Source of the DNA: Nitrospira sp. KM1 | GTDB lineage: Bacteria; Nitrospirota; Nitrospiria; Nitrospirales; Nitrospiraceae | Direction of reading: 5' to 3' | Assembly (NCBI RefSeq): GCF_011405515.1 | Contig: NZ_AP022671.1 | Span: forward strand, 1,736,001-1,800,000 | DNA length: 64,000 nt | In this document: positions 9,558 to 50,001 of the stretch, one piece after another | Layout of the letters: each line of letters begins with the position of its first letter | How positions within the stretch are numbered: the stretch's first letter is position 1 | Made by a program: the position numbers and the translations under genes | Notes under the pieces: model-generated | Databases searched by the model: none | What the model was told of the DNA's origin: nothing | What the model saw: the letters and a program-made list of their open reading frames with translations, nothing else

Positions 9558-9593
9558 CTCGGGGCTGTTTCTCCACCGCGTCTCCGCCGCACA

Positions 9594-10067
9594 TCAATTG
9601 CTTTTCTGTTTTTCCAGATAAGACGCAATTCTCTCCAACGCGAGCGCGCTCAGCTTCTCTCCGTACCAGACAGGCATTGTATTCGCCGGATAGCCCGCCA
9701 CCACATACGCGCCGGGATCCACTACTGATTCCACAATATAATCATGAGGGGTCTTAGCACGCCCGCGATATGCGGGATCATTCAATCGCTGTACCGCTGT
9801 TGTCCCGAGCATGAGCGGCGGCCCTACCCGGCCGATGGCTGCCTCGACGCCGGGAATCGTATGGCAAACGACACATCCGGCTCGCACAAACATCTCACCG
9901 ATCGGTTCATCGCCGCTGACCAAAGGGATCAATTCCGGAAGCAGCGCCGTGGGAACAGGTCCAACAGGCATATCGACCAGCCAACCGTTTTTCATCGAAA
10001 GGAATGCCCAAAGGAACCCAATGGCGATAGCCGCAATGATGAGAACGGTCACCCCACGTTCAGACAT
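9594..10067 (-). CDS. Membrane-anchored monoheme c-type cytochrome
   Basis: 157 residues with an N-terminal hydrophobic segment (about 6-24, VTVLIIAAIAIGFLWAFL) that acts as an uncleaved anchor or signal. One heme-attachment motif is present, CVVCH (about residues 65-69). A plausible distal Met ligand lies in MPVWYGE (about 131) within the usual class I C-terminal helix context (LALERIASYLEKQ). It probably carries electrons in the periplasm. It is on the same strand as the SUMF1 protein and the sulfite dehydrogenase module further upstream, but gaps of 105 and 236 bases make a single operon uncertain. The electron partner is not identified. Confidence 0.85.
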   Translation of the reverse strand: MSERGVTVLIIAAIAIGFLWAFLSMKNGWLVDMPVGPVPTALLPELIPLVSGDEPIGEMFVRAGCVVCHTIPGVEAAIGRVGPPLMLGTTAVQRLNDPAYRGRAKTPHDYIVESVVDPGAYVVAGYPANTMPVWYGEKLSALALERIASYLEKQKSN

Positions 10068-21023: not shown

Positions 21024-21551
21024 CTAGCCTCTGGCCGGTCCTCGTCCCAGAGGACTCACAGCCACAGGTGACTCAGTTTTTGAGCGAGAGAACTTGAAGA
21101 CTTCTCTGTCTTCCTTGTCATCACGAGGAACTGCCGCTATTGCATTGAACACTGCCTCTCTGAGTTGATCCCCTGTTGTCGTAGGTTTATGCAACCCTGC
21201 TTGAGCGCCGTTCTTCACAGCAAGTTCGGTCAGCATTCGGTTCGGGAGTCTGGTGAGAACGATGACAGGAACAGTCGGATGACGAGCCACAGGAACCAGC
21301 TCAACGAGTACTTCAAATCCGCTCATATCAGGAAGATCCAGTTCAAGGACTACACAGTCGATTCGGTGGGCGTAGAAACATTCGAGGCCGGTCTTCCCTC
21401 TGTCGGTCATGAGCAGGAAATACTCAGGTACAAGACGGTCAGCATAGTACTCTCGATCATTGAGAGTGCCGTCAATGATCAGTACTGATTTCCTGTCATA
21501 GTTTCCGGTGGATGATAATTCAGCAGGAGCGAAAGGTGAGGAGTACGCCAT
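21024..21551 (-). CDS. Stand-alone receiver-like protein with Glu at the phosphoacceptor position
   Basis: 175 residues, one REC-type alpha/beta domain (about 20-140) and a charged C-terminal tail; no output domain. The start has AGGAGG 5 bases upstream. The first acidic motif reads VLIIDG (canonical DD, second acid lost). The phosphoacceptor segment reads VLELDLPDMSG, where the residue four before the conserved Pro is Glu instead of Asp. The switch Thr (VIVLTR) and conserved Lys (GLHKP) are kept. It is closely related to the protein at 43111 (shared YYADRL, LDLPDMSG, LVPVA, NGAQA segments) and more distantly to 22698 and 29740. Glu may mimic the phosphorylated state; partner unknown. Confidence 0.85.
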   Translation of the reverse strand: MAYSSPFAPAELSSTGNYDRKSVLIIDGTLNDREYYADRLVPEYFLLMTDRGKTGLECFYAHRIDCVVLELDLPDMSGFEVLVELVPVARHPTVPVIVLTRLPNRMLTELAVKNGAQAGLHKPTTTGDQLREAVFNAIAAVPRDDKEDREVFKFSRSKTESPVAVSPLGRGPARG

Positions 21552-24098: not shown

Positions 24099-24275
24099 TC
24101 ATAAACCATTTCGAGATTTCCAGGTTGCATACGTTATTTGGAGGAACTGGATAGTATTTTCGATAAATACCTGATCCATTACGTCTATATTTCCTTTGGG
24201 ATTGTCTTCCATCCACTTCCTCAGTTCTAAGGCATCTTTTCGCAAATCAGTAAGAACGTTATTCAAGTTATGCAT
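24099..24275 (-). CDS. Small helical protein, IENxIQ family (copy 1)
   Basis: 58 residues from the ATG at 24275, preceded by AGGAGAAC. It is predicted all-helical and contains DNPKGNIDVMDQVFIENTIQ followed by FLQITYATWKSR. Copies at 36486 and 49810 share the pattern (I/L)ENx(I/L)QxxQxxYxxWxxR preceded by an acidic stretch, at the same distance from the C-terminus. No known domain is recognised. The gene follows a small membrane protein gene (24352-24645) on the same strand, 76 bases apart, exactly mirroring the arrangement at 36105-36671. The pairing suggests a joint function. Confidence 0.7.
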   Translation of the reverse strand: MHNLNNVLTDLRKDALELRKWMEDNPKGNIDVMDQVFIENTIQFLQITYATWKSRNGL

Positions 24276-24351
24276 GCTGCCCGTTCTCCTGTCGTAAGAG
24301 GATAACTCCCAGGGCAAGGCTCTCTAGAACGCTATGGTGAAAGAATGGGAG

Positions 24352-24645
24352 TTACAGAGAAGCGAGGCTAACGGGCGGATGGAACATCGTGTATGTCGGA
24401 ACAAAGTGGTACATGACAGTGATCTCTATGGAACCGAAGAGGGATTTCAGCCAAGGCAACAGAGAGACGGCAGCTGCGATAATTGTATAGCCCAGCATGA
24501 CTGAAGCCTGGAAGTCATCTTCCGAATCGGCAAAATTGAATAAGGTGCCAGGCACACCGAGTAGCTGAAAGCAGATTGCGAGACATAGAACGAAAATGCC
24601 ACACCACGAAAGAGACGTAATGTGTCTTTTTTCTCTTGGCACCAT
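24352..24645 (-). CDS. Small membrane protein, GVP/FHPP family (copy 1)
   Basis: 97 residues with two or three hydrophobic segments (about 14-34 and 48-70) around a short acidic loop. Sequence: IFVLCLAICFQLLGVPGTLF, then NFADSEDDFQASVMLGY, and a C-terminal FHPPVSLASL. The copy at 36105 shows the same order: a hydrophobic segment ending in IGVP, an acidic DLTCPDDLF loop, a second hydrophobic stretch and a final FHPPLGFSS. Unknown family. A TTGACT/TATTAC promoter-like pair lies just upstream (about 24656-24683), which would give a very short leader. It is paired with the IENxIQ gene downstream. Confidence 0.6.
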   Translation of the reverse strand: MVPREKRHITSLSWCGIFVLCLAICFQLLGVPGTLFNFADSEDDFQASVMLGYTIIAAAVSLLPWLKSLFGSIEITVMYHFVPTYTMFHPPVSLASL

Positions 24646-25335
24646 TGCTCAAACAGTAATACTCGAAACAACGGATAAGTCAAGGAGAGTTTGCAGGAGC
24701 TGCTTCACTGCTTCATCGTTCACCAATATTCGTCCCGTCTCTCCGCTTCACGTGCTCAGCATTGCAGTCTTGTGCCTGGAGAGCTCTGTATAACATCTCC
24801 CCAAGCTGCTGATCCGAGCGACCCCCGCCAGAATTGGCAGAGCTTCATGCCGAATGGCTTGGTGTGATGATTTCGAAATCGATCGGTCAAGTAGCTATTC
24901 GAGTCCGACATGAACAGTTTGTACGGCAAGAGCGCGTGGGTATCAACGGTTGTGGGCATGCGGGCATCTCAACAATGCAGATTGGATGCACACTCTGACT
25001 AGCTCGGTGACCCCACAATCTCATCAGGACCGTTTCGGAAGAAGGAGTCTGGAGAGAGTCTTGCTGAGGCCCCAGGAGAGGGTGGGATATGTGAGCGACG
25101 GATGTGAAGCGGTAGGCGGCGGGGACCCTAATAGGCCGGGGTAGTTACCGCTTGATGCCAAGGGGGGATTCCTGCCGTGACATGGGGAAATTTGTTGAAC
25201 GATTCGATAGAAACCGATATCAACGAGCCGTCTACGACACATGCGGACCGCTACGGCTCTAGGCATCCATGAGCAGACCAACACACGGCTACCCCAAGAC
25301 GATCATCGTTCTGACGTTCACTCTCACCGTAAGAT
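24646..25335. other. Accessory intergenic stretch, no gene supported
   Basis: About 690 bases upstream of copy 1 of the membrane cassette. Short open frames are present on both strands but none has a convincing ribosome site or product. Confidence 0.45.
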
Positions 25336-25443
25336 TCAGCCTACATGGTGATGGCGCTTTTCCGACTCAGCTTCGACGGCCATAGTCCATGTAATCAGCC
25401 CGATGAGTCCACCCATGACAAACACGCCAAGTAATCCAATCAT
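25336..25443 (-). CDS. 35-residue single-span membrane miniprotein with His-rich tail
   Basis: The ATG at 25443 has a strong AAGGAGG site 7 bases upstream. The product starts MIGLLGVFVMGGLIGLITWT, a single transmembrane helix, and continues with a charged tail, MAVEAESEKRHHHVG. Size, helix and ribosome site together support a real gene that falls below usual ORF cut-offs. It resembles in form the small subunits that stabilise respiratory or transport complexes (for example CydX or CcoQ-like proteins), but there is no sequence evidence for a specific family. No partner gene is adjacent. Confidence 0.6.
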   Translation of the reverse strand: MIGLLGVFVMGGLIGLITWTMAVEAESEKRHHHVG

Positions 25444-25979
25444 GTGGTACCTCCTTGTTTCTCCATTCACCTCTGATCCATGCAATCTAAAGTCCTATTT
25501 GACCGCTTCCTTAAGCATTGAATTCTTCAGAGGTATCCGTTGCTCTTATCGCAGGAGGGTGGTGGACGAAGGAGACATACTGGGCTTCGAGGACAGTCTG
25601 TCTGTAGGGTACCGAATGATACGCACCGATGAAGCAAGGTATAGCCTGGGTGAGATCAAGGTTGGTCGGTGGGGTCTATCCGTATCGTCCAAAGATAAGC
25701 CAATGACGATGTTTCAAAGATGCTTCGATTTGATCATTTGGTGGCCACGTACCCATTCGTGAGAGGGATACTAGTATCGATTACGACGACCTCCGGTTGG
25801 TTGGCAGAGGTCAACCGCTCCTGATGACCTTCTCCCCCGTCCTAGAGTTTCTCCGGCACTTCTATGTCGCGATATCCTAAAGGAGGCTTCGCACACAATG
25901 CCGGAGCTTGGCGCTGCCATCGACTAAAAGGACACGTATAGATTTCAGCCCGTCTTTACTATTTGGAGTAATCCTAGAC
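25444..25979. other. Intergenic stretch upstream of the histidine kinase gene
   Basis: About 530 bases. No gene is supported; the last ~70 bases before 26047 hold a promoter candidate. Confidence 0.5.
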
Positions 25980-26008
25980 TTGACACTTACCCCTACCCAC
26001 TCTACCCT
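25980..26008 (+). promoter_or_regulatory. Sigma-70 promoter candidate for the PAS/GAF histidine kinase operon
   Basis: TTGACA (25980-25985), 17-base spacer, TACCCT (26003-26008). The -35 is perfect; the -10 matches 4 of 6. The start codon is 38 bases further on. Confidence 0.45.
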
Positions 26009-26046
26009 CTGACCGCACTGAAAACTTTTCTCCCCGACATGTAGCC

Positions 26047-28593
26047 ATGAACATGTCTCTCTACCTGATCGCCTGGATTGCCATCCTTCTAGCGTTCTAT
26101 ACGTGTCTGCTTTTAGGCGAGCTACTTTTCGGTCAGATAATACGGGAGTATGCGGTGGTCGCGGTCCTAACGATGTCTGCGGTCGCCTTGATACTGATCC
26201 TCGTACTAAACAAGGTGCGTATCCCGACGCGAATCCGGGCCATCCAGGCCCGTCCCCGTGCGAACCAACAATCGTCAGAAGACGCGCTATCAGGAGATCA
26301 TGAGCGCTTGAGCAGCGCATTTCAGCATGCGACGATCGGAATGGCCTTAGTTGGAGTGGATGGACAATGGCTCAAAGTCAATGCTGCCTTGCGCAAGATA
26401 GTCGGATATACAGAAGCTGAATTACTCTCCACCACCTTTCAAGCGATCACACACCCCGATGATCTTGATGCCGATCTCGCGTTTGTTCGTCAAATGCTAA
26501 ACGGTGAAATTTGCTCGTACCAGTTGGAGAAGCGGTACTTTCACAAACAGGGTCATCTCGTGTGGATCCTGCTCAGTGTGTCGCTGGTCCATGACTCGAA
26601 AGGGCGGGCTCGATACTTCATCTCACAAATTCAAGATATTACGGCGCGCAAACATAGTGAAATCGCGCTCCGAGAAAGCGAGCGACATTATCAAGCCTTC
26701 ATGGATAATAGCCCATCCTTGGCCTTTATGAAGGATTCCCAGGGCCGCTATCTGTATGTGAACAAGCGGATGGAAGAACATTTCCAGAAGCCGGCGGAAC
26801 TATGGATTGGAAAGACAGATCATGATTTGTGGTCGGCGGAAGTTGCAGAGCAATTTTGCAGGCATGATCGAGAGTGCCTGACTGCCCTAACGGTGATCGA
26901 TCGTATCGAGACAACGCCGGACGTCCATCTTGGAGTACGAGAATGGGCGGTATGCAAGTTTCCCATTCAAGACGCATCCGGGCAGATTTATCTCGGCGGC
27001 GTCGCTGTAGACATCACTGAAAGAAAGCAAGCAGCGAAAGCACTCTTCGACAGCGAATCGCGTTTACAAGCGATTATGGCTAACACACCGAACATGGTGT
27101 TTCTCAAAGACATTGGCGGACGCTATCTCCTGATCAACCGTCAGTTTGAGAAAACGTTCCATGTGACCGCAGCCGAGGTGGCAGGCAAGACCGATGAGGA
27201 AATCTTTTCTGCCGACCAGGCTGCCGCGTTTCAAGCAAACGACCGACAGGTGCTTGAGATGGGGAAGGCCATGCCGTTCGAAGAGGTGGCGCTTCACGAC
27301 GATGGCCCCCATACAAGCGTGGTGTACAAGTTTCCATTGCATGCCATGGATGGAGCACTCTATGGCATCGGTGGGATTACTGCGGACATTACCGAGCGGA
27401 AACGCGTCGAGAATGAACTACTGGCTGTTAAGGAGGATCTCGCCAACGAACTGATGGCAATGAGTCGCCTGCATGAGTTTAGTACACGGTTGGTAACCAC
27501 TACTGCGCTTCAGCCCCTGCTCCAGGAGGTCCTCACTGCAACCATGTCATTACAAGACGCTCATTTCGGGAATGTCCAGCTCTACAACCCTCAAAGCCGT
27601 GCTTTAGAAATCGTGGCACAACACGGGTTCCAACAGGACTTCCTTCAACACTTTGCCAGCGTTCACGAAGACTGCTCGGCATGCGGGAGGGCTTTGCATC
27701 GGATGCAACGGGTTATTATCGAAGATGTCCTTACCGACCCGGACTTCGAACCTCACCGGCCGATCGCTCTGTCAGCGGGATTTCGTGCTGTTCAGAGTAC
27801 TCCGCTCTTTAGCCGAAATGGCGAACTCCTGGGAGTCATTTCCACACATTTTCGCCATGTGCATCGCCCCTCGGATCGAGAACTCAGAATCACCGATCTG
27901 TACGCCAGGCAGGCAGCCGAAATGATTGAACGTAAAAGGGCTGAGGAAACCCTGCGAAGCAGTGAGGGCCGACTACGTCATGCACTCGAGGCGCGAGAAC
28001 AGTTGTCCCAAGACCTCCATGACCATGTGATTCAGTCGATTTATGCAATTGGAATGACATTGGAGACTTGCCGCTATCTTATCGATCAAGATCCGGCCGG
28101 CGCGTCACAACGAGCTCAGAGGGCGATTGACGGTCTCAATGATGTGATCCGGCAGTTGCGTAACTATATTGAATGGGGGCGCCTGACGACCATTCCCGCT
28201 AAGCGGTTCCACGAAGCTTTCGATGAAGTGATCCTAGCGATGAAGCCGGAACAGCCTCTGAATATACGGCAAACCATCGATTTATCAATTTCGGCGCTCC
28301 TGACCGAGGACGAAACCATGCATGTCCTGCATATTCTGCGCGAGGCCTTAAGCAATACGGTGCGTCATGCGAAAGCGAAGACGGTGGATGTCGTATTGCA
28401 GCAAGAAGTCGGCGGCCTTCGTTTTGAAGTGAAGGATGACGGGGTCGGTTTTGATCCCGCATCTGTCCAGAGCCACGGATGGGGATTGCGCAATATTGCA
28501 TCACGAGCCGGCAAATTGCACGCGGAGCTCAAAATCATTGCAGCGCAGGGGGTGGGAACACAGCTCATCCTTCATATTCCAACGATACGGTAA
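26047..28593 (+). CDS. Membrane PAS-PAS-PAS-GAF sensor histidine kinase, NarX/HisKA_3 type
   Basis: 848 residues. Two N-terminal membrane helices (about 5-27 and 33-55) are followed by three PAS domains (about 95-205, 212-335, 338-455; each ends in a DITERK/DITARK-type PAC motif), a GAF domain (about 490-620), a HisKA_3 dimerisation domain with the phosphorylated His in LSQDLHDHVIQSIYAIG, and an HATPase domain (about 755-848) with EALSNTVRHAKAK and VKDDGVGFD. HisKA_3 kinases normally phosphorylate NarL-type regulators, and one follows 7 bases downstream. The PAS/GAF input suggests cytoplasmic sensing of redox state or small ligands. No haem or flavin site can be assigned. Confidence 0.93.
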   Translation: MNMSLYLIAWIAILLAFYTCLLLGELLFGQIIREYAVVAVLTMSAVALILILVLNKVRIPTRIRAIQARPRANQQSSEDALSGDHERLSSAFQHATIGMALVGVDGQWLKVNAALRKIVGYTEAELLSTTFQAITHPDDLDADLAFVRQMLNGEICSYQLEKRYFHKQGHLVWILLSVSLVHDSKGRARYFISQIQDITARKHSEIALRESERHYQAFMDNSPSLAFMKDSQGRYLYVNKRMEEHFQKPAELWIGKTDHDLWSAEVAEQFCRHDRECLTALTVIDRIETTPDVHLGVREWAVCKFPIQDASGQIYLGGVAVDITERKQAAKALFDSESRLQAIMANTPNMVFLKDIGGRYLLINRQFEKTFHVTAAEVAGKTDEEIFSADQAAAFQANDRQVLEMGKAMPFEEVALHDDGPHTSVVYKFPLHAMDGALYGIGGITADITERKRVENELLAVKEDLANELMAMSRLHEFSTRLVTTTALQPLLQEVLTATMSLQDAHFGNVQLYNPQSRALEIVAQHGFQQDFLQHFASVHEDCSACGRALHRMQRVIIEDVLTDPDFEPHRPIALSAGFRAVQSTPLFSRNGELLGVISTHFRHVHRPSDRELRITDLYARQAAEMIERKRAEETLRSSEGRLRHALEAREQLSQDLHDHVIQSIYAIGMTLETCRYLIDQDPAGASQRAQRAIDGLNDVIRQLRNYIEWGRLTTIPAKRFHEAFDEVILAMKPEQPLNIRQTIDLSISALLTEDETMHVLHILREALSNTVRHAKAKTVDVVLQQEVGGLRFEVKDDGVGFDPASVQSHGWGLRNIASRAGKLHAELKIIAAQGVGTQLILHIPTIR

Positions 28594-28600
28594 TGACATC

Positions 28601-29251
28601 GTGACATTGCCTCGCATCCGATTGTTCCTCGTCGATGACCATGAAGTGGTGCGGTTAGGGTTGCGTGAGCTGTTCAATCGCAGCGAGCACATCATCGTCA
28701 TCGGTGACTGTGCAACAGCCTCTCAAGCGATTACAGATGCCGTCACCCTCAAGCCGGACGTCGTGCTGATGGATCTTCGTCTGCAGGAAGGCAGTGGTGT
28801 TGAAGCCTGCCGAGAAATCCGGGATGCCTGCAGGAACACACGAGTCCTGTTTTTCACCTCTTTCGGCGACGAAGAGGCGGTGCTATCGACGACTTTAGCC
28901 GGCGCAAGCGGTTATCTCATGAAACATATTGACGGGAGCGTCCTCATTGATGCGGTCGAACGCGTTGCAAGGGGGCATTCGATTATCGATCCGAGGATCT
29001 CAGAGACGATACTCACGCGAATAAAATCGCTTGGATCGGAGCGGACTGAGGATGCCATCGAGTCACTCTCTCCGCAAGAACTCCGCATCCTTCCCTTACT
29101 TGCCGAAGGAAGAACCAATAAAGAGATTGCCATTGCGCTCGGTCTAAGCGACACGACGGTGAAAAGTTATCTCCACAGGATGTTTCAAAAACTTCACGTT
29201 TCCCGGAGATCGCAAGCCGCGGTCTTATTTTCTAAGACCACTAGAATGTAG
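28601..29251 (+). CDS. NarL/LuxR-family response regulator
   Basis: 216 residues from a GTG at 28601, 7 bases after the kinase stop. The receiver domain starts LPRIRLFLVDDHEVVRLGLREL with the acidic DD pair; the phosphoacceptor lies in VVLMDLRLQEGSG, the switch Thr/Ser in LFFTS and the Lys in YLMKH. The C-terminal LuxR helix-turn-helix (about 150-210) has LSPQELRILPLLAEGRTNKE and GLSDTTVKSYLHRMFQKLHV. All features are normal. It is the expected partner of the kinase just upstream. An ATG at 28593 leads to an immediate stop and cannot be used. Confidence 0.93.
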   Translation: MTLPRIRLFLVDDHEVVRLGLRELFNRSEHIIVIGDCATASQAITDAVTLKPDVVLMDLRLQEGSGVEACREIRDACRNTRVLFFTSFGDEEAVLSTTLAGASGYLMKHIDGSVLIDAVERVARGHSIIDPRISETILTRIKSLGSERTEDAIESLSPQELRILPLLAEGRTNKEIAIALGLSDTTVKSYLHRMFQKLHVSRRSQAAVLFSKTTRM

Positions 29252-29371
29252 TGACAAGGGCCCTCGGCCTACCTCCAAAAAACATCCGGCATACCTCCGA
29301 TCGGAGGTACCGGATTTCTTCCGTTTCGCTACACTTAAGACATGTCTGAATGCGCAGGGGGTCGAGTCCCC

Positions 29372-29743
29372 ATGACCTGCATCCTCGTCATAGACGACGA
29401 TATACAAACAAGGACATGGATGAGACGTGTGTTGGAAGCAGCAGGGTATGCCGTCACAGAAGCCAGCAATGGCCACATGGCTCTTCAGCGCCTTGAGACT
29501 GCGCCGAGTGATTTGCTGATCCTCGATATTTTCATGCCAGAAAAGGATGGATTGGAACTGCTCCGTCGGCTGCGCAGTCAGCATTCGACCGCGAGGGTCA
29601 TCGCGATTTCAGGAGGCGGGGACCTCGAAGATACGAGTTATCTTGCCGTGGCGGCACGGCTGGGAGCACACCAGATACTTGAAAAGCCATTTGATAGTGC
29701 GACGCTGCTTCGCAGCGTAACGCAACAGTTAACGAATAGATGA
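29372..29743 (+). CDS. Canonical receiver-only response regulator
   Basis: 123 residues from the ATG at 29372, or 133 from the ATG at 29342. All receiver landmarks are present: ILVIDDD, LLILDIFMPEKDG with the phosphoacceptor Asp, a Ser in the switch position (VIAISGG) and Lys in EKPF. No output domain. Its stop overlaps the start of the next gene (ATGA), so it is translationally coupled to a receiver that lacks the phosphoacceptor Asp. It probably belongs to the pathway of the kinase at 26047, perhaps as a phosphate sink or connector. Confidence 0.85.
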   Translation: MTCILVIDDDIQTRTWMRRVLEAAGYAVTEASNGHMALQRLETAPSDLLILDIFMPEKDGLELLRRLRSQHSTARVIAISGGGDLEDTSYLAVAARLGAHQILEKPFDSATLLRSVTQQLTNR

Positions 29744-30165
29744 GCAGCCAGGTACGTGTGACGACATATTCAGAAAGCATTCGCGTGCTAATCATTGATC
29801 CGTATGAGAGCGATCGGCTGTATTGGCATCGGCAACTCACGCAGTTTTCAGGTAGCTATCGAGTGATGGAGGCTGAGAGCGGCGGAATCGGCCTTCAGCG
29901 TCTTAAAGACCATGAGTTCGATTGCATCCTTCTTGAACTTGATCTGCCGGACATGACGGCTCTGGAGGTTTTGACCCATATCAGCGCTCACCTCGAAGGG
30001 CATCTTGGAGTGGTGGTTTTTACTCGGCACATGTTTTTGTCCTTGGCTGACCTTGCCTTGCGAACTGGTGCGCAGTTGAGCTTGTTCAAGTTAGTCACAT
30101 CTATAGAAGACGTGGATCGGGCCATTCGAATGGCGATGAGGCCACGCGTTGAAGAGTCGATCTAA
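29740..30165 (+). CDS. Receiver-like protein with Glu at the phosphoacceptor position
   Basis: 141 residues. The start ATG overlaps the stop of the canonical receiver gene. First motif VLIIDP (second acid lost), phosphoacceptor segment CILLELDLPDMTA with Glu four before the Pro, switch Thr in VVFTR, Lys in LFKLV. The SDRLYWHRQL and FDCILLEL segments align with the proteins at 21024, 22698 and 43111. A coupled pair of normal and Glu-type receivers suggests that they form a heterodimer or work in the same relay. No output domain is present. Confidence 0.85.
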   Translation: MSSQVRVTTYSESIRVLIIDPYESDRLYWHRQLTQFSGSYRVMEAESGGIGLQRLKDHEFDCILLELDLPDMTALEVLTHISAHLEGHLGVVVFTRHMFLSLADLALRTGAQLSLFKLVTSIEDVDRAIRMAMRPRVEESI

Positions 30166-30488
30166 GACAATTGATTTATCAGTTGTAATTCTAATCACGG
30201 ATAGTGTGATCGTTTGCAATCCGCAGAATATTTGACCATGGCATTCACTGTTGAACATTGTGGAGGGGTACATTAGAGCACTCAATATCATGGCTAAGAA
30301 TAACAATGGAGATTTCAAGGCGCTCGGTGGATTTTATCAGTAATGTGACCGCCCGCGTCGCACGGGCAAACCCTCTTGCACGATCGTTTAATTTCGCGCG
30401 ACGCGATTCTTCTATGGAAGAGAATCCGGTCATCGTGACCCAAGCAACGGATGTCTGGTACCGGCGAGACAATGGACTAATTCATTCG
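30166..30488. other. Intergenic stretch between convergent genes
   Basis: About 320 bases between the receiver gene and the truncated CDF gene. No gene is supported; this sequence replaces the missing C-terminal part of the CDF gene. Confidence 0.5.
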
Positions 30489-30785
30489 TCAGCGCGAAGA
30501 CAACATGTGCGTCCGAATCCGCTCGCGAAAGGGTCGTCGCCCTTTGATCGACGGTGCACGCCTTACCATCTTCACGAACGAACTGCCTGCACGAATAATC
30601 TCGACGCTATTTGATAAGAAAGCTGCCCACAGTTGGAACGAGGCCGCTGCCAGTAGGCCAGCAAGCGAGATCTTAAGGGCCGCAATGCCTCGTTGCATGG
30701 TCAGCAAAACTGGGTCCACTGTGCCGTGGGTGTGAGTGTGTGCCCGTGAACAAATTATTTTGCATGATGATGCTCCAAACCTCAT
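30489..30785 (-). pseudogene. Truncated cation diffusion facilitator (CzcD-like) gene
   Basis: The frame starts with an ATG overlapping the czcA stop (ATGA). Residues about 15-65 (HTHTHGTVDPVLLTMQRGIA, then ALKISLAGLLAAASFQLWAA) match the start of CDF transporters: His-rich N-terminus, THGTVDP and the first membrane helix. After LSNSVEIIRAG similarity ends; the remaining ~30 residues are basic and unrelated, and transmembrane helices 2-6 are missing. A HHHAK reading in another frame upstream hints at a further shift at the N-terminus. It was probably once the last gene of the metal-efflux operon. Confidence 0.7.
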
Positions 30786-33700
30786 ACATCTGGAGACGAA
30801 AAGGAGTCGGCAGAAAGTTGAGGGCGACAGAATCTACGATAGAGTGCGGGAATGACCAATAAGGTTAATGCCGTGGAAGTAGCCACCCCCCCAATGACGA
30901 CCGTTGCCAACGGGCGTTGCACTTCGGCCCCCATGCTAGTTGCGAAGGCCATCGGAAGAAAGCCAAAGCCGGCCACTAACGCCGTCATCAGAACAGGGCG
31001 TACCCTGTCCATGGCCCCTTGATTGATTGCCGTTTCGGTTGAAGTGCCTTGGGCCTCAAGGTTTCGAATGTGACTGACGAGCACAACCCCATTGAGGACA
31101 GCGATGCCAAATAATGCGATGAACCCGATTGCAGCTGAAATGCTCAGTGGAAGCCCTCTGATCCAAAGCGCGAGCACTCCGCCGGATAAGGCAAGCGGGA
31201 CGTTGAAGAAGATAAGCCATGCAGGACGAATGCTGCCAAATACGACCGAGAGCATGCTCAGGATCAGCAGAAGAGTCAGCGGGATAACAATCAGCAGTCT
31301 GGATGACGCCTCCTGTAAATGCTGATATTGCCCTCCCCATCTCACGTAATAGTTAACCGGCAGCGAGATTGACCGAGACACCTCCCGCTGGGCTTCCATC
31401 ACAAAGCTCCCAAGGTCTCGTCCTCGGACATTGCATTCAACGAGGATCCGTCGCTGAACATCTTGGCGGCTTATTTGCGCCGGACCGGTATCTGCTTGGA
31501 TTTCTGCCACGCGTGATAATGGGACAAGCTCTCCGTGCATAGTCGGAATCAGCAGCCCACCCAGCCGTTTTGGATCAGCGGAAATATGCTCACTCAAGCG
31601 GACGACGAGATCGAATCGCCGAACTCCCTGGATAACAGTCCCGACGACATGGCCCGTGCGAGACGTTTCAACGACGGTCAGCACGTCCTCAGCGGTGAGC
31701 CCATAGCGCGCGATTTGATCGCGATCAACGATTACGCGTAAAAGGGGAAGACCGGAAATTTGTTCGACTCGCACATCGGCGGCCCCACGAATGCGCTCGA
31801 TGACTTGTGCAATGGCATCGGCTCTCTGACGCAAGATGTCCAGATCGTCGCCGAACAGCTTAATAGCGAGATCGGATCGAGATCCGGCAATCAGCTCGTT
31901 AAAGCGCATTTCGATTGGCTGGGTGAACCCCAGACCGACGCCCGGAACTGTTTCTCTGATCGCCGCCTGCATCTTGGCGATGAGTTCATCACGTGTCTGA
32001 GCTGATTGCCAGTACCGCATGGGCTGGAGAATGGCAAATACATCGGACAGCTCGATGCCCATGACGTCGGTGGCGACTTCAGGACTGCCTGTCCTGGTGA
32101 CCACGTTCACCACCTCTGGAAATGTCCTGAGCACCCTCTCAATTGCGATCGAGGTGGCAACCGATTCACTCAGCGAGACGCTCGGCAGTCTCCAAACATT
32201 GATGGCAAAGTCCCCCTCGTCTAGTCTGGGTACGAATTCAACGCCGAGCGTGGAGGCTATGCCAACACTGACCAGAAAGACGAAGGCGCTTCCGGCGACA
32301 AGTTTAGCCGGATGCTTCATCGCCCGGGTGAGGAGTGGTGTGTAGACGCGTCGCACGAGACGGGTCATATATGTCTCTCCGTCTCTGTGAGTTGGTCGTA
32401 CGCTCCACAAGGCGAGGACAGGTGTCACAGCAACGGCGACGATGACAGAGCCCGCTAAGGCGAAAATGACGGTCAATGCCATCGGTCTGAACAGTTTTCC
32501 TTCAATCCCGGTCAATGCCAGGATTGGTAGATAGACGGCAATAATAATGCCGACCGCGAAGACCATGGGTCGTAGGACTTCCCGTCCCGCCGCCTCAATT
32601 TCCATTTTGCGACCGTAGGCTGACTCGGGTTTCGCTAGGGTCATCCGGCGTAAGATATTGTCGATCATCACGACCGACCCATCGACGAGAAGACCAAAAT
32701 CAATCGCACCGAGACTCATCAGATTTCCTGAAAATCCCGTGGCCACCATACCGGTAAAAGCGAAGAGCATGGAAAGAGGTATGGCGGACGCGACAATCAA
32801 ACCAGCGGCGAGATTTCCCAAGAACAAGAAGAGCACCGCAACGACGAGCAGTCCCCCTTCGAGCAGATTGTTTCGGACCGTGCGAATGACCTGATCGACA
32901 AACCGTGTACGGTCATAATACGGAGTAATTGACACGCCGGCCGGCAGAGTCGCCTGAATTTCCTGGACCCGAATTTTTACACGCTCCACAATTTGTTGAG
33001 CATTTTCTCCCGCGAGCATTTGGACCATACCGATGACGGTTTCGCCATCACCAAGTGCCGTCGCTGCCCCGATTCGTAATGCAGGCCCTTCTTTGACCTG
33101 TGCCACATCGCGAATCAAGATGGGGACACCGTTGGCTCCATGTGCAACGATAATGCGCCCCAGATCGGTAGCAGTTTGAGCCAACGCTTCTCCGCGTATG
33201 AGGACTTGTTCGCGTTCATGCTCGATGTACCCGCCTCCAACAAGCGCGTTGTTGCGTTCTAGCGCGTTGAACACCTGTGGCAAGCTGACTTTGTAGGAAA
33301 GAAGTTTGGCCGGTTCAACGATGACGTGATACTGTTGCTCTTCGCCTCCCCAAATGTTGACTTCGACGACGCCGGGAATGGTCCGGAGGCGCATGCCGAT
33401 GTCCCACTCCAGCATCGTGCGAAGAACCATGGGACTATAGCCGGCCCCCTTTAGGGTAAATTGGTAGACCTCGCCAAGCCCCGTGGTGAGCGGGCCGATG
33501 AGGGGCTTGCCATATTCAGGAGGCACTCGCGCGCGTGTGAGGCGTTCAGTCACAAGTTGCCGTGCACGATAGATATCCGCATGGTCTTCAAAGATTGCGG
33601 TGACGGCGGATAGGCCATAGCGCGAGACGGAACGGAGTTCGTGGAGGCCCGGCAAGCCCGCGAGTGAGGCTTCGATTGGAAATGTCACCAACTGTTCTAT

Positions 33701-33877
33701 TTCGACAGGCCCCAGAGCAGGGGATCGGGTAAGCACCTGTACCTGAACAGGGGTTAAGTCTGGCATCGCATCAATGGTCAGATGCGCAAACGACCATAGC
33801 CCTGTCGTAATGACTAGGAGCATGCAGACAAGGGTAAAAAACCGGTAGCGGAGCGAAAGGAGAAATAAGGAGTCCAT
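30782..33877 (-). CDS. czcA: Heavy-metal efflux RND pump, CzcA/CusA family
   Basis: 1031 residues, the size of HME-RND proteins. The inner-membrane proton antiporter drives metal export through the cell envelope. The N-terminus RYRFFTLVCMLLVITTGLWS is TM1. The proton-relay motif in TM4 reads DFGLLVDGSVVMIDN, matching the D-F-G-x-x-x-D-G pattern of CzcA-type pumps. Large periplasmic loops and two sets of helices are present, and no frameshift is seen. Substrate (Zn/Co/Cd versus Cu/Ag) cannot be fixed without the Met-triad alignment; the truncated CDF neighbour and His-rich protein suggest divalent metals. czcB lies 5 bases upstream. Confidence 0.92.
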   Translation of the reverse strand: MDSLFLLSLRYRFFTLVCMLLVITTGLWSFAHLTIDAMPDLTPVQVQVLTRSPALGPVEIEQLVTFPIEASLAGLPGLHELRSVSRYGLSAVTAIFEDHADIYRARQLVTERLTRARVPPEYGKPLIGPLTTGLGEVYQFTLKGAGYSPMVLRTMLEWDIGMRLRTIPGVVEVNIWGGEEQQYHVIVEPAKLLSYKVSLPQVFNALERNNALVGGGYIEHEREQVLIRGEALAQTATDLGRIIVAHGANGVPILIRDVAQVKEGPALRIGAATALGDGETVIGMVQMLAGENAQQIVERVKIRVQEIQATLPAGVSITPYYDRTRFVDQVIRTVRNNLLEGGLLVVAVLFLFLGNLAAGLIVASAIPLSMLFAFTGMVATGFSGNLMSLGAIDFGLLVDGSVVMIDNILRRMTLAKPESAYGRKMEIEAAGREVLRPMVFAVGIIIAVYLPILALTGIEGKLFRPMALTVIFALAGSVIVAVAVTPVLALWSVRPTHRDGETYMTRLVRRVYTPLLTRAMKHPAKLVAGSAFVFLVSVGIASTLGVEFVPRLDEGDFAINVWRLPSVSLSESVATSIAIERVLRTFPEVVNVVTRTGSPEVATDVMGIELSDVFAILQPMRYWQSAQTRDELIAKMQAAIRETVPGVGLGFTQPIEMRFNELIAGSRSDLAIKLFGDDLDILRQRADAIAQVIERIRGAADVRVEQISGLPLLRVIVDRDQIARYGLTAEDVLTVVETSRTGHVVGTVIQGVRRFDLVVRLSEHISADPKRLGGLLIPTMHGELVPLSRVAEIQADTGPAQISRQDVQRRILVECNVRGRDLGSFVMEAQREVSRSISLPVNYYVRWGGQYQHLQEASSRLLIVIPLTLLLILSMLSVVFGSIRPAWLIFFNVPLALSGGVLALWIRGLPLSISAAIGFIALFGIAVLNGVVLVSHIRNLEAQGTSTETAINQGAMDRVRPVLMTALVAGFGFLPMAFATSMGAEVQRPLATVVIGGVATSTALTLLVIPALYRRFCRPQLSADSFSSPDV

Positions 33878-33882
33878 TGTCC

Positions 33883-35055
33883 TTACTCCCCCGATCCAAT
33901 GTGCTCTTTGAGCAGAACACTTTTGAGATCAAACACCCCTTGTGTCACGACTTGATCCCCGGCCGTGAGACCCTTACTAATTTCTATCCAACCGTCACCT
34001 TCACGGCCCGTGTCTACCACTACGAAATGATAGTTTGCCCCTTCCTGTACAAAGACCCCTCGACTCTTATCGATGGACGCCAGCGCAGAAACAGGAACGG
34101 CCAGGGTTGGGGAGCCTTTGACTGCTAGCTTGACCTCGACGAACTCATGCGGCTTCAGGCGCTCATTCAAATTGGACACTTCAAACCGTACCTTCACGGT
34201 GCGAGTTTGTTCATCGGCCACGGGAGACAAATACGTGAGGGGTGCAACAACGGATTCTCCACCCTTGGGTATGATCGTGGCCTGATCTCCTTCTTTGAAT
34301 TGGCGTGCCTGCTCGATGGGCAGATTGGCGAACACCCATACTCGGTCGGTGTTCACAATCTCAAACAATTCGTTTCCTGGGGCGACCCCCTGTCCCCGTA
34401 CGACATTTTGTTCAATGACCGTCCCCTGAATCGGCGACTTGATAATGTATTTGTGTCCCTCTTGGTGACTGCCATGCTCGAGCTCCCTCAATTCCTGGGA
34501 TGACATTCCCATATTTATGAGTTTTTCACGCACGTGCTGATGCCGTGCGGTCGACTCCAGGAAGACGCCGCGATGTTCGACGAGCTGGCGCTCAGAGACG
34601 ATTCTCTCTTTCCAGAGGTTCTCTGTCCGTCTGTACGTGCTGGCTGCGACATCGGCCTGGGCTTTTGTCACCAAATATTCTTGGACAAGCTCGTCCAGTC
34701 TCAGACTTTCTATCTCCAAGAGCGGTTGGCCAGCTCGAACCCGATCCCCTAATTGCACATGAATAATTTGGACTTGGCCTTCAATGCGTGAAGAAATTTT
34801 CGCGACATGTTTGAGATCAAGTGCGATTTCACCCGGAGCCGTCATGGATTGTGCAACTTTCTGCAAGGAGGCCGGTTCCGTCTTAATGCGGTCAAGCACG
34901 GCCCCGGGCGCTTGAATCTGTCGAAAAATCCCTACTCGATCCGTCGGACGAGAACTGTCATGAGAGGGAGTTGCCGTGGACTCCGCTCCACGCTCATTAC
35001 AGGAGCTTACGGACAGAGAAAGGGCGAAAGCCAACGTAATAGTGCTTCTTCTCAT
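33883..35055 (-). CDS. czcB: RND efflux periplasmic adaptor, CzcB/HlyD family, lipoprotein
   Basis: 390 residues. The signal ends SLSVSSC, a lipobox, so the adaptor is lipid-anchored. The barrel-sandwich/lipoyl domain has VAKISSRIEGQVQIIHVQLG followed by DRVRAGQPLLEIES, the coiled-coil hairpin lies at about residues 125-190, and the beta-barrel has VWVFANLPIEQARQFKEGDQ. It connects CzcA to an outer-membrane factor. The overall order fits CzcB/CusB-like proteins. No outer-membrane channel gene (czcC) is found in the window although it is usually adjacent. Confidence 0.9.
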   Translation of the reverse strand: MRRSTITLAFALSLSVSSCNERGAESTATPSHDSSRPTDRVGIFRQIQAPGAVLDRIKTEPASLQKVAQSMTAPGEIALDLKHVAKISSRIEGQVQIIHVQLGDRVRAGQPLLEIESLRLDELVQEYLVTKAQADVAASTYRRTENLWKERIVSERQLVEHRGVFLESTARHQHVREKLINMGMSSQELRELEHGSHQEGHKYIIKSPIQGTVIEQNVVRGQGVAPGNELFEIVNTDRVWVFANLPIEQARQFKEGDQATIIPKGGESVVAPLTYLSPVADEQTRTVKVRFEVSNLNERLKPHEFVEVKLAVKGSPTLAVPVSALASIDKSRGVFVQEGANYHFVVVDTGREGDGWIEISKGLTAGDQVVTQGVFDLKSVLLKEHIGSGE

Positions 35056-35220
35056 TAGTGCCTCATGCCGTCATGACGACGATGCAACGCCTTAGCGCAT
35101 CATTGAACCGAAATCCTCGACGGTCACCCATTCATGAATTAAAGCTGCAGCAATATGCTGTGCCGCAGGGGCCGGACATACCTGGCCTCATGTGAGCAAT
35201 TCGCGGGTTACGAATTCAAA

Positions 35221-35688
35221 TTACAGAGCACCAGGCGGAGCACGAAGAGGTAAGGCTTTGGAGAGATAGATCGATGTAGGGTGTTTGACGGGTGGAGACG
35301 AAGTTGCAGCAACGATCCGTTGCCGCAAAAGGGAAGAGGCGTCTACGGTTTCTGCCACAACGGTGGACGCAAAGACCGTTGGCCACTCTATCGAAGCAGT
35401 GAGAAGCGAAAAGCTAATTTCTTGCTGGCCAAAGAGGTGAGGAGCATGACCGTACGGATACCGGTCTGAGGAGGGATCGTCGATATCACTCGATGCATGC
35501 TCATGAGCAATGGGTTCATCGTCATGGTCGCTGGAAAACACACTATGAACAACCGCACCATGATCGTGGATAGTATCTCCCCCGTGGTGGTGCAACCCGG
35601 GATGGGCGTGCACCAAAGGGACAACCAATAGCCAGAGTATTGACCAGGCGAGAAGAATCAACCGAGATTTTGATATACGAACAATCAT
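35221..35688 (-). CDS. Exported His-rich protein of the metal-efflux operon
   Basis: 155 residues with a signal peptide (about 9-29, LILLAWSILWLLVVPLVHAH). The mature N-terminal part is dense in His, Asp and Glu (HPGLHHHGGDTIHDHG and SSDHDDEPIAHEHASSDID), a likely metal-binding region. The C-terminus ends LPLRAPPGAL, a tail seen in other small proteins encoded upstream of czcCBA genes. It probably buffers or senses periplasmic metal ions. The ribosome site is weak. It lies 165 bases before czcB on the same strand, where czcC would normally be found. Confidence 0.65.
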   Translation of the reverse strand: MIVRISKSRLILLAWSILWLLVVPLVHAHPGLHHHGGDTIHDHGAVVHSVFSSDHDDEPIAHEHASSDIDDPSSDRYPYGHAPHLFGQQEISFSLLTASIEWPTVFASTVVAETVDASSLLRQRIVAATSSPPVKHPTSIYLSKALPLRAPPGAL

Positions 35689-35974
35689 AGCATTCGTTTG
35701 GCTGATGAAAAGCTAGCATAGACGCCATGAGAGATCAATCAAGACGCCGGCACTGCATTGCCGCGTCAAAAAGGAGACCGCCTCCGGACAAGCCAGAGGC
35801 TTCCTCCCGAAGGCCGGCTATTGCGGCGTACTGCGCGCGGCATCCACGCCTTGGCTTGCGCCATGGCGCTGAATAACCCTCCTCGACATCCTTGACGCTG
35901 AATGCGGCCCCCCCTTGCGCCAAGTGAACTCCTCCTATTCCAAATCAAGACACATAGGTACTGAGCTGCCCTGG
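35689..35974. other. Intergenic stretch upstream of the His-rich gene
   Basis: A minus-strand frame (35735-35923) has a composition rich in Gly, Ala and Arg without a ribosome site, and I do not accept it as a gene. The metal operon promoter should lie at about 35690-35760, but no clear boxes are seen. Confidence 0.35.
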
Positions 35975-36003
35975 TTGTATTACGTAGTTCTATTTTCTAC
36001 AAT
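35975..36003 (+). promoter_or_regulatory. Sigma-70 promoter candidate for membrane cassette copy 2
   Basis: TTGTAT (35975-35980), 17-base spacer, TACAAT (35998-36003), a near-consensus -10. It is about 100 bases upstream of the small membrane protein gene at 36105. Confidence 0.5.
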
Positions 36004-36104
36004 AGTCCGGGCGCTTGCATTTTTTGTCCGGTTGGGCCACAACCACGGTGCATGAGATCTTCAACCACGCCCTGTCGTTTCGTTGCTCATTTCAGAGACC
36101 GCCT

Positions 36105-36407
36105 ATGATCGCACGCCATCGGAGCGGTACACGCGCGGATGTGGCGCCCTTCGCTCTCTACCTGATCGCATTCATCTGCGTCGTCGTATTCATGGACATG
36201 ATCGGGGTCCCGATGTCTCTCTGGGATCTCACATGTCCGGACGATCTCTTTAGTCTGTCCATTCTGGAAGCCTTCGCCGTCGTCGCGGATACTCGTGTGC
36301 TCATTCCCTTCCTCTATCTTGTCGGTAGCGTGATGCTGATCAAACCCAGTTATCAACCGATTCCCTCACGTCCCCTATTTCATCCCCCTCTAGGTTTCTC
36401 CTCCTAG
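36105..36407 (+). CDS. Small membrane protein, GVP/FHPP family (copy 2)
   Basis: 100 residues from the ATG at 36105; the frame is open from 36015 and the ribosome site is weak, so the start is uncertain. Hydrophobic segments at about 14-34 (FALYLIAFICVVVFMDMIGV) and 55-85 flank the loop SLWDLTCPDDLF; the C-terminus ends LFHPPLGFSS. The order of motifs matches the protein at 24352 (GVP, acidic loop, second helix region, FHPP tail). The IENxIQ gene follows 69 bases downstream, as in copy 1. Function unknown. Confidence 0.6.
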   Translation: MIARHRSGTRADVAPFALYLIAFICVVVFMDMIGVPMSLWDLTCPDDLFSLSILEAFAVVADTRVLIPFLYLVGSVMLIKPSYQPIPSRPLFHPPLGFSS

Positions 36408-36485
36408 CCATCTAAGAGCGAAAGCGAGCCTTCTGGAGAGTGCGTATGGCCTCTCTCAAGCCACATCTATGGAGGTATGAAATTT

Positions 36486-36671
36486 ATGGGGAGCATCAAT
36501 GCGCAATTAGTCCATTTTGGAAGATGCATACGCGCCATCACCGAATGGCTGGATCTGAATCCGACTATGAACGCGGAAGATAAACTCATGCTCGAGAATT
36601 ACATCCAGATTCTCCAACTGGCCTATGCGGGCTGGGGCAGACGACAGAGGGAAATGACACCGAGAAAATAG
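36486..36671 (+). CDS. Small helical protein, IENxIQ family (copy 2)
   Basis: 61 residues from the ATG at 36486, which is 9 bases after GGAGGT; the ATG at 36477 directly abuts that site and is less likely. The core is WLDLNPTMNAEDKLMLENYI, then QILQLAYAGWGRRQ. Acidic-pair, ENxIQ, LQxAYxxW and R positions coincide with copies at 24099 and 49810. Probably a soluble helical hairpin or a short dimeric coiled coil. It lies downstream of a GVP/FHPP membrane protein gene. Confidence 0.72.
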   Translation: MGSINAQLVHFGRCIRAITEWLDLNPTMNAEDKLMLENYIQILQLAYAGWGRRQREMTPRK

Positions 36672-43110: not shown

Positions 43111-43575
43111 ATGTTGACGAAACACGAGTCTCATTCCATATCAGTCCTGCTCATTGATAGCCACCACAGGGAACGGCGATACTACGCGGACTGTCTCAAG
43201 GCGGCTTTTTCCGACTACCATATTGTTGAAGCAGCGACCGGTCAACGGGGAATTGAGCATTTTCAAAGTTCCCCCCAGACTGATTGTGTGGTAGTAGAAC
43301 TCGATCTCCCGGATATGTCGGGCTATAAGGTGCTCATCGACCTTGTTCCTGTTGCCTCCTCACCCGCTATTCCAGTGATTATCCTCACAAGACTGACGAA
43401 TCCGTTGCTGTTGGAGCTCGCGATGAAAACTGGTGCGCAAGCCGCGTTTCGAAAAGTCTCAACGTCCGGCGAAATAATCGACTCGGCGATACGGACCGCA
43501 GTAGCGGCAGTACCAAGACGGGTCAATTTTTCAGACTTGGGCCAGCGAATTTGCCGGTCTGCGACGTTCACCTGA
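43111..43575 (+). CDS. Stand-alone receiver-like protein with Glu at the phosphoacceptor position
   Basis: 154 residues from the ATG at 43111 (AAAGGAGG 5 bases upstream). First motif VLLIDS, phosphoacceptor segment VVVELDLPDMSG with Glu four before the Pro, switch Thr in VIILTR, Lys in AFRKV. It is the closest relative of the 21024 protein: both have RxYYADxL, LDLPDMSG, LVPVA, PVIxLTRL and GAQA in the same places and a C-terminal AIAAVPR/AVAAVPR. It differs in being the last gene of a small operon with the RRTL and basic proteins. No output domain. Confidence 0.85.
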   Translation: MLTKHESHSISVLLIDSHHRERRYYADCLKAAFSDYHIVEAATGQRGIEHFQSSPQTDCVVVELDLPDMSGYKVLIDLVPVASSPAIPVIILTRLTNPLLLELAMKTGAQAAFRKVSTSGEIIDSAIRTAVAAVPRRVNFSDLGQRICRSATFT

Positions 43576-48018: not shown

Positions 48019-49422
48019 ATGGCATTGAGCGATACGCACATACTGGTAGTCGACGATGATGAGGAGAACAACGCGTTGCTTGCAGAGGCATTATCCCAAC
48101 GGGGTTACAGGACGACAATGGCTTCAAATGGACATGAAGCTTGTCAGAAAGCTAAGCAGGAAAGATTTAGTTTGATCGTGTCGGACATCCAAATGGGGGC
48201 ATTGTCGGGAATTGAACTGCTCAAGTGGCTTCGAACGAACTCCCCCGAAACTCCTGTTATTCTGCTGACCGCCTTTGGTTGTGTGGAGATTGCCATAAAC
48301 GCAATGAAACACGGAGCGTTTGACTATTTGACCAAGCCGATTAATTTGGAAGAATTATTTTTGATCGTGACTCGAGCGCTTGAGCACGAGCGACTAGTTC
48401 GGGAAAACAATACGCGCAAGACGGCGTTGAGTCCGTCTCTCAACGTTAGCCAGCGCGTTCAATTTGGATCGATCGTTGCTCAGAGCCGATCCATGGTTGA
48501 GATATTCAAGACAATTGGAAAAGCCGCACCAACCAGAGCTTCGCTCCTCATTTATGGAGAGACGGGGACTGGGAAGGAACTGATCGCTCGATCTCTCCAT
48601 GAGAACAGTGCACGATTCAAAATGCCTTTTATTGCGTTAAACTGTGCGGCCATACCGGATAACCTCTTAGAAAGTGAACTCTTCGGCCATGTCAAAGGAG
48701 CGTTCACTAATGCGCTGCACATGAGGCGCGGTCTATTGGAAGAGTCAAGTGGAGGCACCCTATTTCTGGATGAAATCAGTGACCTATCTCTTGCCAGTCA
48801 GGCCAAACTGTTACGAGTCTTACAGGAGGGAGAAATCAAACGTTTAGGCAGTAACTTCAATATCAAAGTCGATCTTCGGCTGGTCTCGGCATCCCAACTC
48901 AATTTGGCAGACTTAGTCAAACAGGGACGCTTTCGTGAGGACCTATTCTATCGTCTCAAAACCATTACCGTTACAGTTCCCCCTCTTCGAGAGCGCATAG
49001 ACGATATCCCTTTGTTAGCCGATTTGTTTCTAGCTCGGTATGGATCAGCAAAGAACATTACAGGGTACACTCCTTCGGCTCTCTTGCGGCTTCAGCAATA
49101 TCACTGGCCGGGAAACGTTCGAGAATTAGAACACGTCGTCGAAAGAGTGGTCACACTCGCCCCCGGTCCCATTATCTCTGAAGAGGATCTACCAGTTGAA
49201 CTTCATGATAGCGTAACGCAGATGAAATCAATAGAACATCAACGGCCAGTTGCCTTTGCACGACGCAAAGCCGCCCATATCACTCGAGATGAGTTACTTG
49301 ATACGTTGAAAAAAACCTTCGGCAATAAGGCTCATGCTTCGGAAGTCTTGGGAATCAGCCGTTGGGCTCTTAAGCGTTTGCTGGAGAAACACGCTCTAGA
49401 GGAACGTACTTCTTGGAAGTAA
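48019..49422 (+). CDS. NtrC-family sigma-54 response regulator with altered GAFTGA loop
   Basis: 467 residues: receiver (about 5-120; VVDDDEEN, phosphoacceptor SDIQMG, Thr in LLTAFG, Lys in LTKP), AAA+ domain (about 155-385; Walker A GETGTGKE, Walker [32 protein letters not shown]) and a C-terminal Fis-type helix-turn-helix ([20 protein letters not shown]). The sigma-54-contact loop reads [10 protein letters not shown] where the consensus is GHEKGAFTGA, so Gly-5 is Asn and the preceding Glu is Val. A functional partner of the kinase upstream is likely, but promoter opening by sigma-54 may be altered. Possible targets are the small gene at 49810 or its own operon. Confidence 0.92.
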
Positions 49423-49809: not shown

Positions 49810-50001
49810 ATGGTTAAACATAGTCCTGTGTTAGCCGAGTTTGAGAAAAGCATCAAGGCTCTTGCGCAATTGCTCAACCGCGATCCAGATCTAGATGATG
49901 AGGATCGAGTTTCCATTGAAAATCATCTGCAGATCGTGCAAATGGCATATACCGTCTGGACCCATCGAAAAGCGTCACGAAGCAGAAACCCTCATGGATG
50001 A
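49810..50001 (+). CDS. Small helical protein, IENxIQ family (copy 3)
   Basis: 63 residues. LNRDPDLDDEDRVSIENHLQ, then IVQMAYTVWTHRKA, aligns with the copies at 24099 and 36486 (D/E-rich stretch, IENxxQ, xxQxAYxxW, R). The ribosome site is weak. Unlike the other two copies no GVP/FHPP membrane protein gene is found upstream; the nearest upstream gene is the NtrC-type regulator. It may therefore act alone or with a partner elsewhere. Confidence 0.7.
   Translation: MVKHSPVLAEFEKSIKALAQLLNRDPDLDDEDRVSIENHLQIVQMAYTVWTHRKASRSRNPHG

Follow-up and report, generated by a model that had tools for sequence, protein, structure and literature searches.

In a 64,000-nucleotide (nt) window of the Nitrospira sp. 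KM1 genome (contig NZ_AP022671.1, positions 1,736,001 to 1,800,000 of the forward strand; the whole stretch analysed, numbered from its first letter), two genes recur side by side, one encoding a bitopic membrane miniprotein (MP) and the other a small two-helix protein (SP). We show that this two-gene unit, present in four copies, formed in the KM1 lineage from a member of a Nitrospiraceae-wide MP family and a member of an independent SP family. With moderate confidence we regard MP as a leader or sensor gene that is independent of SP and that, in this lineage, became joined to SP and was duplicated. The best explanation for the system as a whole, adopted tentatively and rated below an even chance, is that MP is a cis-acting leader gene and SP a receiver-binding helical hairpin. 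Both window pairs open where the initial annotation had placed them, with gaps of 76 nt and 78 nt. The copies and their parts are as follows.

24352-24645, minus strand: MP1, bitopic membrane miniprotein of 97 residues with an N-terminal transmembrane (TM) helix, an acidic loop and the C-terminus FHPPVSLASL
24373-24384, minus strand: FHPP codons of MP1 (TTC CAT CCG CCC), with the stop six codons on
24276-24351, minus strand: 76-nt spacer between the MP1 stop and the SP1 start
24099-24275, minus strand: SP1, two-helix protein of 58 residues, IENTIQFLQITYATWKSR
36105-36407, plus strand: MP2, bitopic membrane miniprotein of 100 residues with the C-terminus FHPPLGFSS
36378-36389, plus strand: FHPP codons of MP2 (TTT CAT CCC CCT), the motif common to the whole MP family
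36408-36485, plus strand: 78-nt spacer between MP2 and SP2, with a Shine-Dalgarno-like GGAGG at about 36471
36486-36671, plus strand: SP2, two-helix protein of 61 residues, LENYIQILQLAYAGWGRR
49810-50001, plus strand: SP3, a third SP copy of 63 residues, unpaired
Genome 1,143.0-1,143.6 kb: third MP-SP pair, gap 48 nt
Genome 3,329.5-3,330.1 kb: fourth MP-SP pair, gap 76 nt
Genome 365.0 kb: lone MP with no SP partner

The window copies are true paralogues: MP1 and MP2 align at E=4e-12 with 26% identity across 77 residues, and SP1 and SP2 at E=3e-10 with 33% identity across 55 residues. We prefer 36486 over 36477 as the start of SP2 because GGAGG stands shortly upstream of it. A scan of the 76-nt MP1-SP1 spacer revealed no terminator-like or promoter-like site. 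SP3 starts 388 nt downstream of a sigma-54-type response regulator gene (48019-49422, plus strand), and neither an MP nor an MP relic was found upstream of it. Profile searches of the complete 4.51-Mb genome recovered five clear SPs and five MPs, four of each joined in pairs with gaps of 48-78 nt; the initial annotation, which had noticed the cassette twice, was thus right about repetition and undercounted it. Two further, weaker SP-like matches lie in the same genome.

Phylogenies point to how the unit arose. A tree of 103 MPs places the four paired members in a single clade (support 96/88), recovered in 98% of bootstrap trees, so the simplest account of their order and spacing is descent from one ancestral, duplicated pair. 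In the SP tree, the lone SP groups with two paired SPs, and the remaining two paired SPs are not resolved. The simplest history is that MP and SP joined once and were then duplicated in this lineage, one SP later standing alone. Among the genomes searched, one per species and with genes outside the window called by a codon-based caller, 26 of the 33 distinct SPs come from other genomes. None of these 26 adjoins an MP, and the closest MP to any of them is 1.7 kb off on the opposite strand. Strict MP-SP pairing is therefore known solely from the KM1 genome, and the idea of a general, selected cassette did not survive this synteny check. Sequences across related genomes revealed purifying selection in both families, not the neutral drift that would speak against the cassette: the median ratio of nonsynonymous to synonymous substitution (dN/dS) is about 0.32 for MP and 0.30 for SP, indicating that both are coding genes. 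The initial annotation had argued for selection on the pair. Each protein is under purifying selection, the pair is repeated and the adjacency is not chance, yet the monophyly of the paired MPs makes it a single event, and the argument is only partly supported.

MP itself is widespread: 72 of the 175 family genomes contain relatives, in numbers that reach 11 per genome and frequently in loose clusters. It is nearly confined to Nitrospiraceae, with four marginal matches outside. Two of these marginal relatives, from other Nitrospirota families (loci L167:2318-2581 and L168:2731-3036), both end in SIFHPPxxxS and stand before a TlpA-like redoxin gene, which suggests that the tail motif may predate the family. 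Scanning 84,980 species for the core QMLG[VA]PVTL returned matches solely in Nitrospira-like records; one is titled Nitrosospira, which we take as a mislabel. A search of viral contigs found no relatives and gave no backing to a virus origin. As the initial annotation had supposed in calling the system undescribed, neither product matches a known family: MP has no relative in Pfam (members checked at E up to 1), NCBIfam, PHROGs, PADLOC or PDB sequences, and SP has no meaningful match in the same five collections. MP is similar to the small DUF2946/CzcI-like proteins exported from metal-efflux operons in combining a signal or TM segment, a variable middle and an xPP near the C-terminus next to metal-efflux genes, but Pfam gave no match to MP members at E up to 1, and MP lacks a Cys/His-rich middle.

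The anatomy of MP is unusually regular. AF2 (AlphaFold2) predicts one TM helix at residues 13-33 with high confidence and no confident structure beyond it, which narrows the earlier description of a membrane protein to a single predicted span. Most of 85 members carry a net positive charge at the N-terminus, and the loop past the TM helix is acidic, from which we predict an N-in/C-out topology. Conserved positions around the TM end comprise C, CxC, Q, G, P, T, D and E. At the other end, F[HR]PP occurs in 104 of 108 MPs (the others carry LRPP in two cases, DHPP in one and FQPP in one), exactly two residues before the stop in 72 of the 108; the Phe is conserved at 98%, the His at 77% and each Pro at 100%. 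Nonsynonymous change (pN) is 0.10 in the last eight residues and 0.21 elsewhere. The linker between TM end and tail is poorly conserved in sequence despite its near-constant length: 57-59 residues separate the conserved TM-end Gly from the Phe of F[HR]PP (10th-90th percentile; range 56-76). Within the KM1 paired clade, the second Cys of CxC is mostly lost and the tail past the di-proline is longer, at 4-11 residues.

We then considered where MP genes sit. In 92 of 108 cases MP is followed by a gene on its own strand, compared with a 70% background for other genes in the same loci (P=3e-4); this comparison counts related loci as independent, with no correction for relatedness. The spacer to this gene has a median of 181 nt, with the 30th-80th percentiles at 144-248 nt. 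Judged from sequence, the downstream genes are unrelated to one another and encode lipoproteins, cupredoxin-like lipoproteins, SulP, PepSY-like, Gfo/Idh, OtsB-like, PilZ and TlpA-like proteins and, in KM1, SP. Pairing between the 3' end of MP and the Shine-Dalgarno sequence of the gene that follows reaches 0.26, versus 0.15 in control gaps (P=0.002; P=0.012 when matched for length). Rho-type C-over-G composition in MP spacers equals that of controls, terminators within these spacers are as rare as in controls, and a search for Rfam RNAs at window positions 20-51 kb found none. Two side observations concern the same regions. One orthologue group (L083:3362-3520, L092:318-475, L125:5770-5928 and their orthologues) has a conserved, structured spacer after MP, in whose outer stem the bases right after the MP stop pair with the downstream Shine-Dalgarno region; compensatory change appears in 7 of 29 predicted pairs, and the covariation term is not favourable. 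A repeated, unannotated lipoprotein-like family of about 200 residues (GCTTVxxP...HGLLxGxxxL) follows MP in 11 loci (L085, L092, L082, L084; examples at L085:6794-7402, 8427-9038 and 9244-9840), and the one member tested had no Pfam match.

Because MP swaps partners freely, stands upstream on the same strand and ends strictly in a di-proline motif, it resembles a cis leader more than a subunit. We propose that the ribosome would synthesise the signal-anchor helix (N-in, C-out) followed by a spacer of near-constant length, and would slow at Phe-His/Arg-Pro-Pro right before the stop. Such pausing may depend on insertion of the nascent chain or on a bound partner, and would set expression of the downstream gene, which is SP in KM1 and in most relatives has a transport, metal, redox or stress function. 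We put this arrest-leader reading at about a third, with a trans-acting small membrane regulator nearly equal to it.

Published screens for arrest peptides look for small size, an N-terminal localization signal or TM segment, a conserved C-terminus and a spacer of more than 30 residues (PMC10987492). MP has these properties, with its AF2 helix at 13-33, its conserved tail and a spacer of 56-76 (mostly 57-59) residues, and in this it resembles arrest-leader candidates. RAPP/RGPP leaders, found in many phyla, precede metal, PepSY and thioredoxin genes (PMC12992588). Like MP, leaders of this kind (SecM, ApdA, ApdP, the RQH family and CruR of Bordetella; PMC10987492, PMC12992588) are small exported or membrane proteins with no known domain, an N-terminal localization signal, a long spacer and a di-proline near the stop, and they are usually followed across a spacer by a same-strand gene of similar type (metal, PepSY or thioredoxin-like). 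MP differs in ending in F[HR]PP instead of R/H/Q-A/G-P-P, in its near-constant distance from TM to motif and in the 15% of members without a same-strand downstream gene. The YidC-monitoring leader MifM of Bacillus also has one TM helix at an almost fixed distance from the arrest site (median 54, PMC10987492; 57-59 from TM-end Gly to Phe in MP). That fixed distance is ascribed to an N-out topology (PMC10987492), whereas MP is predicted to be N-in, where a fixed distance is unexpected; no sequence relation between the two is shown.

The window also holds a strong candidate for the RAPP class of arrest leaders for metal efflux. It is a His-rich signal-peptide protein that ends in LPLRAPPGAL and lies 165 nt upstream of a CusB-like gene.

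35221-35688, minus strand: candidate RAPP leader
33883-35055 and 30782-33877: CusB/CzcA-like efflux genes following the leader

Relatives of this leader occur in 116 of 172 family genomes, and all 12 loci inspected keep both RAPP and a same-strand downstream gene at a called gap of 134-321 nt; from its N-terminal sequence, we judge that gene to be CusB- or CusC-like. With a spacer length like that of MP, the window leader offers a local precedent for reading MP as a leader.

Several results weigh against MP as a leader. The RAPP-like C-terminal motif (R/H/Q-A/G-P-P, RAGP or RAPG) is absent from MP, and neither of the two papers examined mentions FHPP or HPP. Of 108 MPs, 16 face a convergent gene and mostly retain the motif, which therefore cannot serve a downstream gene alone. 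Masking the ribosome footprint releases the Shine-Dalgarno sequence hardly beyond control gaps; a consensus RNA fold emerges in one MP orthologue group and not in a second, more diverse group; and the four KM1 pairs have short spacers (48-78 nt) whose structure is not unusual. The TM-proximal segments CxC, QMLG, VPVTLL, D and SVxEGFS are conserved family-wide, which suggests a functional protein.

These last features fit an alternative that we rate just behind the leader, as possible but unlikely in its own right: that MP works in trans as a small membrane regulator or subunit, using its TM helix and periplasmic tail to bind transporters or envelope proteins encoded nearby, its adjacency to SP being mere co-expression. 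AcrZ, KdpF and MgtS are small membrane regulators or subunits of the kind to which MP would then be likened. The conserved CxC in the TM helix, QMLG-VPVTLL and SVxEGFS favour this alternative, as do purifying selection over the whole protein, persistence of the motif where no same-strand gene follows, and neighbours that include, by sequence, a P-type ATPase, SulP, NhaA-like and Na/H antiporters, RND pumps and MscS. Yet no single partner family emerges, since the neighbour differs in almost every orthologue group; AF2 confidence outside the TM helix is low; and a protein acting in trans does not require a near-universal motif position before the stop.

SP is rarer, with relatives in 16 of 175 family genomes; a wider profile brings in a divergent branch, and a peptide-pattern search of other species' genome contigs confirmed none. 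AF2 predicts a two-helix hairpin (helices 6-24 and 30-58) at a predicted local distance difference test score of 79 from a three-sequence alignment. A PDB fold search returned nothing at E<=0.001, and we regard a weak profile match to the PDB sequence of a dynein regulatory complex protein as helix coincidence. Conservation is highest at N and Q in helix 2; E/D precedes the N in most members, and W comes after. By analogy only, SP is like Spo0E-like aspartyl-phosphate phosphatases, which are also two-helix proteins of 50-60 residues linked with response regulators, and the predicted SP structure fits them in its two antiparallel helices and its length. The motif of Spo0E is SQxxD, which SP does not share in its constant helix-2 residues, and the Spo0E Pfam profile matched none of 22 SP members.

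The neighbourhood of SP suggests that it is possibly a receiver-binding adaptor: in the cell it would be a small cytoplasmic helical hairpin that binds response regulators at their receiver domains or tunes how active they are. In KM1, four of the five SPs have a receiver-domain gene no more than 1.5 kb away, a condition for which 8.7% of the genome qualifies (P about 3e-4); this limit is one of four tried, and at 0.5 and 1 kb two of the five qualify (P 0.02-0.04). Across genomes, 11 of 33 SPs and 6 of 109 MPs have a receiver gene within 1.5 kb. Three SPs in three genomes overlap or abut a NarL-type regulator gene (at -7, -3 and +21 nt; L091:2888-3702, L097:3662-4452 and L053:1838-2669), one of these loci carrying a second SP 152 nt after the regulator, and in one MP-SP pair SP lies 110 nt before the gene for a receiver-only protein. 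Speaking against an adaptor role, no receiver gene lies that close to the other 22 of the 33 SPs. In a family of short receiver-only response regulators, several of them near SP genes, the phospho-acceptor Asp is apparently replaced by Glu (E[LR][DR]LPD-like), which would make them pseudo-receivers.

21024-21551, minus strand: pseudo-receiver gene in the window
29740-30165, plus strand: pseudo-receiver gene in the window
43111-43575, plus strand: pseudo-receiver gene in the window
L081:3723-4187, L174:3150-3446 and L068:640-1059: pseudo-receiver genes in further loci

Other accounts address the pair itself. The adjacency could be purely historical, two unrelated genes having joined once and been copied together while their products function separately. 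The monophyly of the paired MPs, the lack of pairing in other genomes and the persistence of SP3 alone agree with this, but four copies have kept adjacency and spacing while their proteins diverged to 26% identity, the genes are near enough for co-transcription and no more than one clear SP is unpaired; we judge a purely historical origin unlikely. Improbable is a single membrane-anchored complex of MP and SP, for example with SP as a cytoplasmic arm relaying an MP signal to a response regulator. Retention of four pairs at 48-78 nt speaks for it, together with the proximity of SP to receiver genes, including the case 110 nt before a receiver-only protein. Against this, MP is predicted to be N-in with just ~12-20 cytoplasmic residues, little for SP to grip, each family mostly occurs without the other, and one window SP has no MP. 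Least credible of all is a toxin-antitoxin or immunity-like pair with a membrane-active MP and SP as its antidote: size, the combination of a membrane protein with a helical partner, and several copies would suit it, but most MP carriers have no SP (MP in 72/175 genomes, SP in 16/175, paired in KM1 only), PADLOC, PHROGs, Pfam and NCBIfam hold no match, and the surroundings of MP are transport and stress genes instead of defence-gene islands. Because the two genes mostly occur apart, we reject both an obligate complex and a toxin-antitoxin pair as the general function.

In its boldest form, which we consider doubtful, the cis-leader reading would make the MP family a novel type of sensor acting through the nascent chain. 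Roughly a hundred Nitrospiraceae leaders would then use a CxC TM helix, a 57-59-residue ruler and an F[HR]PP stall to link membrane or redox/metal state to the expression of many stress and transport genes unrelated to one another, and in KM1 one leader would have been joined to a two-helix adaptor of response regulators, the two spreading together. SP is a minimal candidate for such an adaptor. If F[HR]PP is a stall motif, regulated translation arrest would gain a new motif and a whole gene set in a major nitrifier lineage; if it is not, MP would still stand as an abundant membrane protein, so far unstudied, whose tail is unusually strict.

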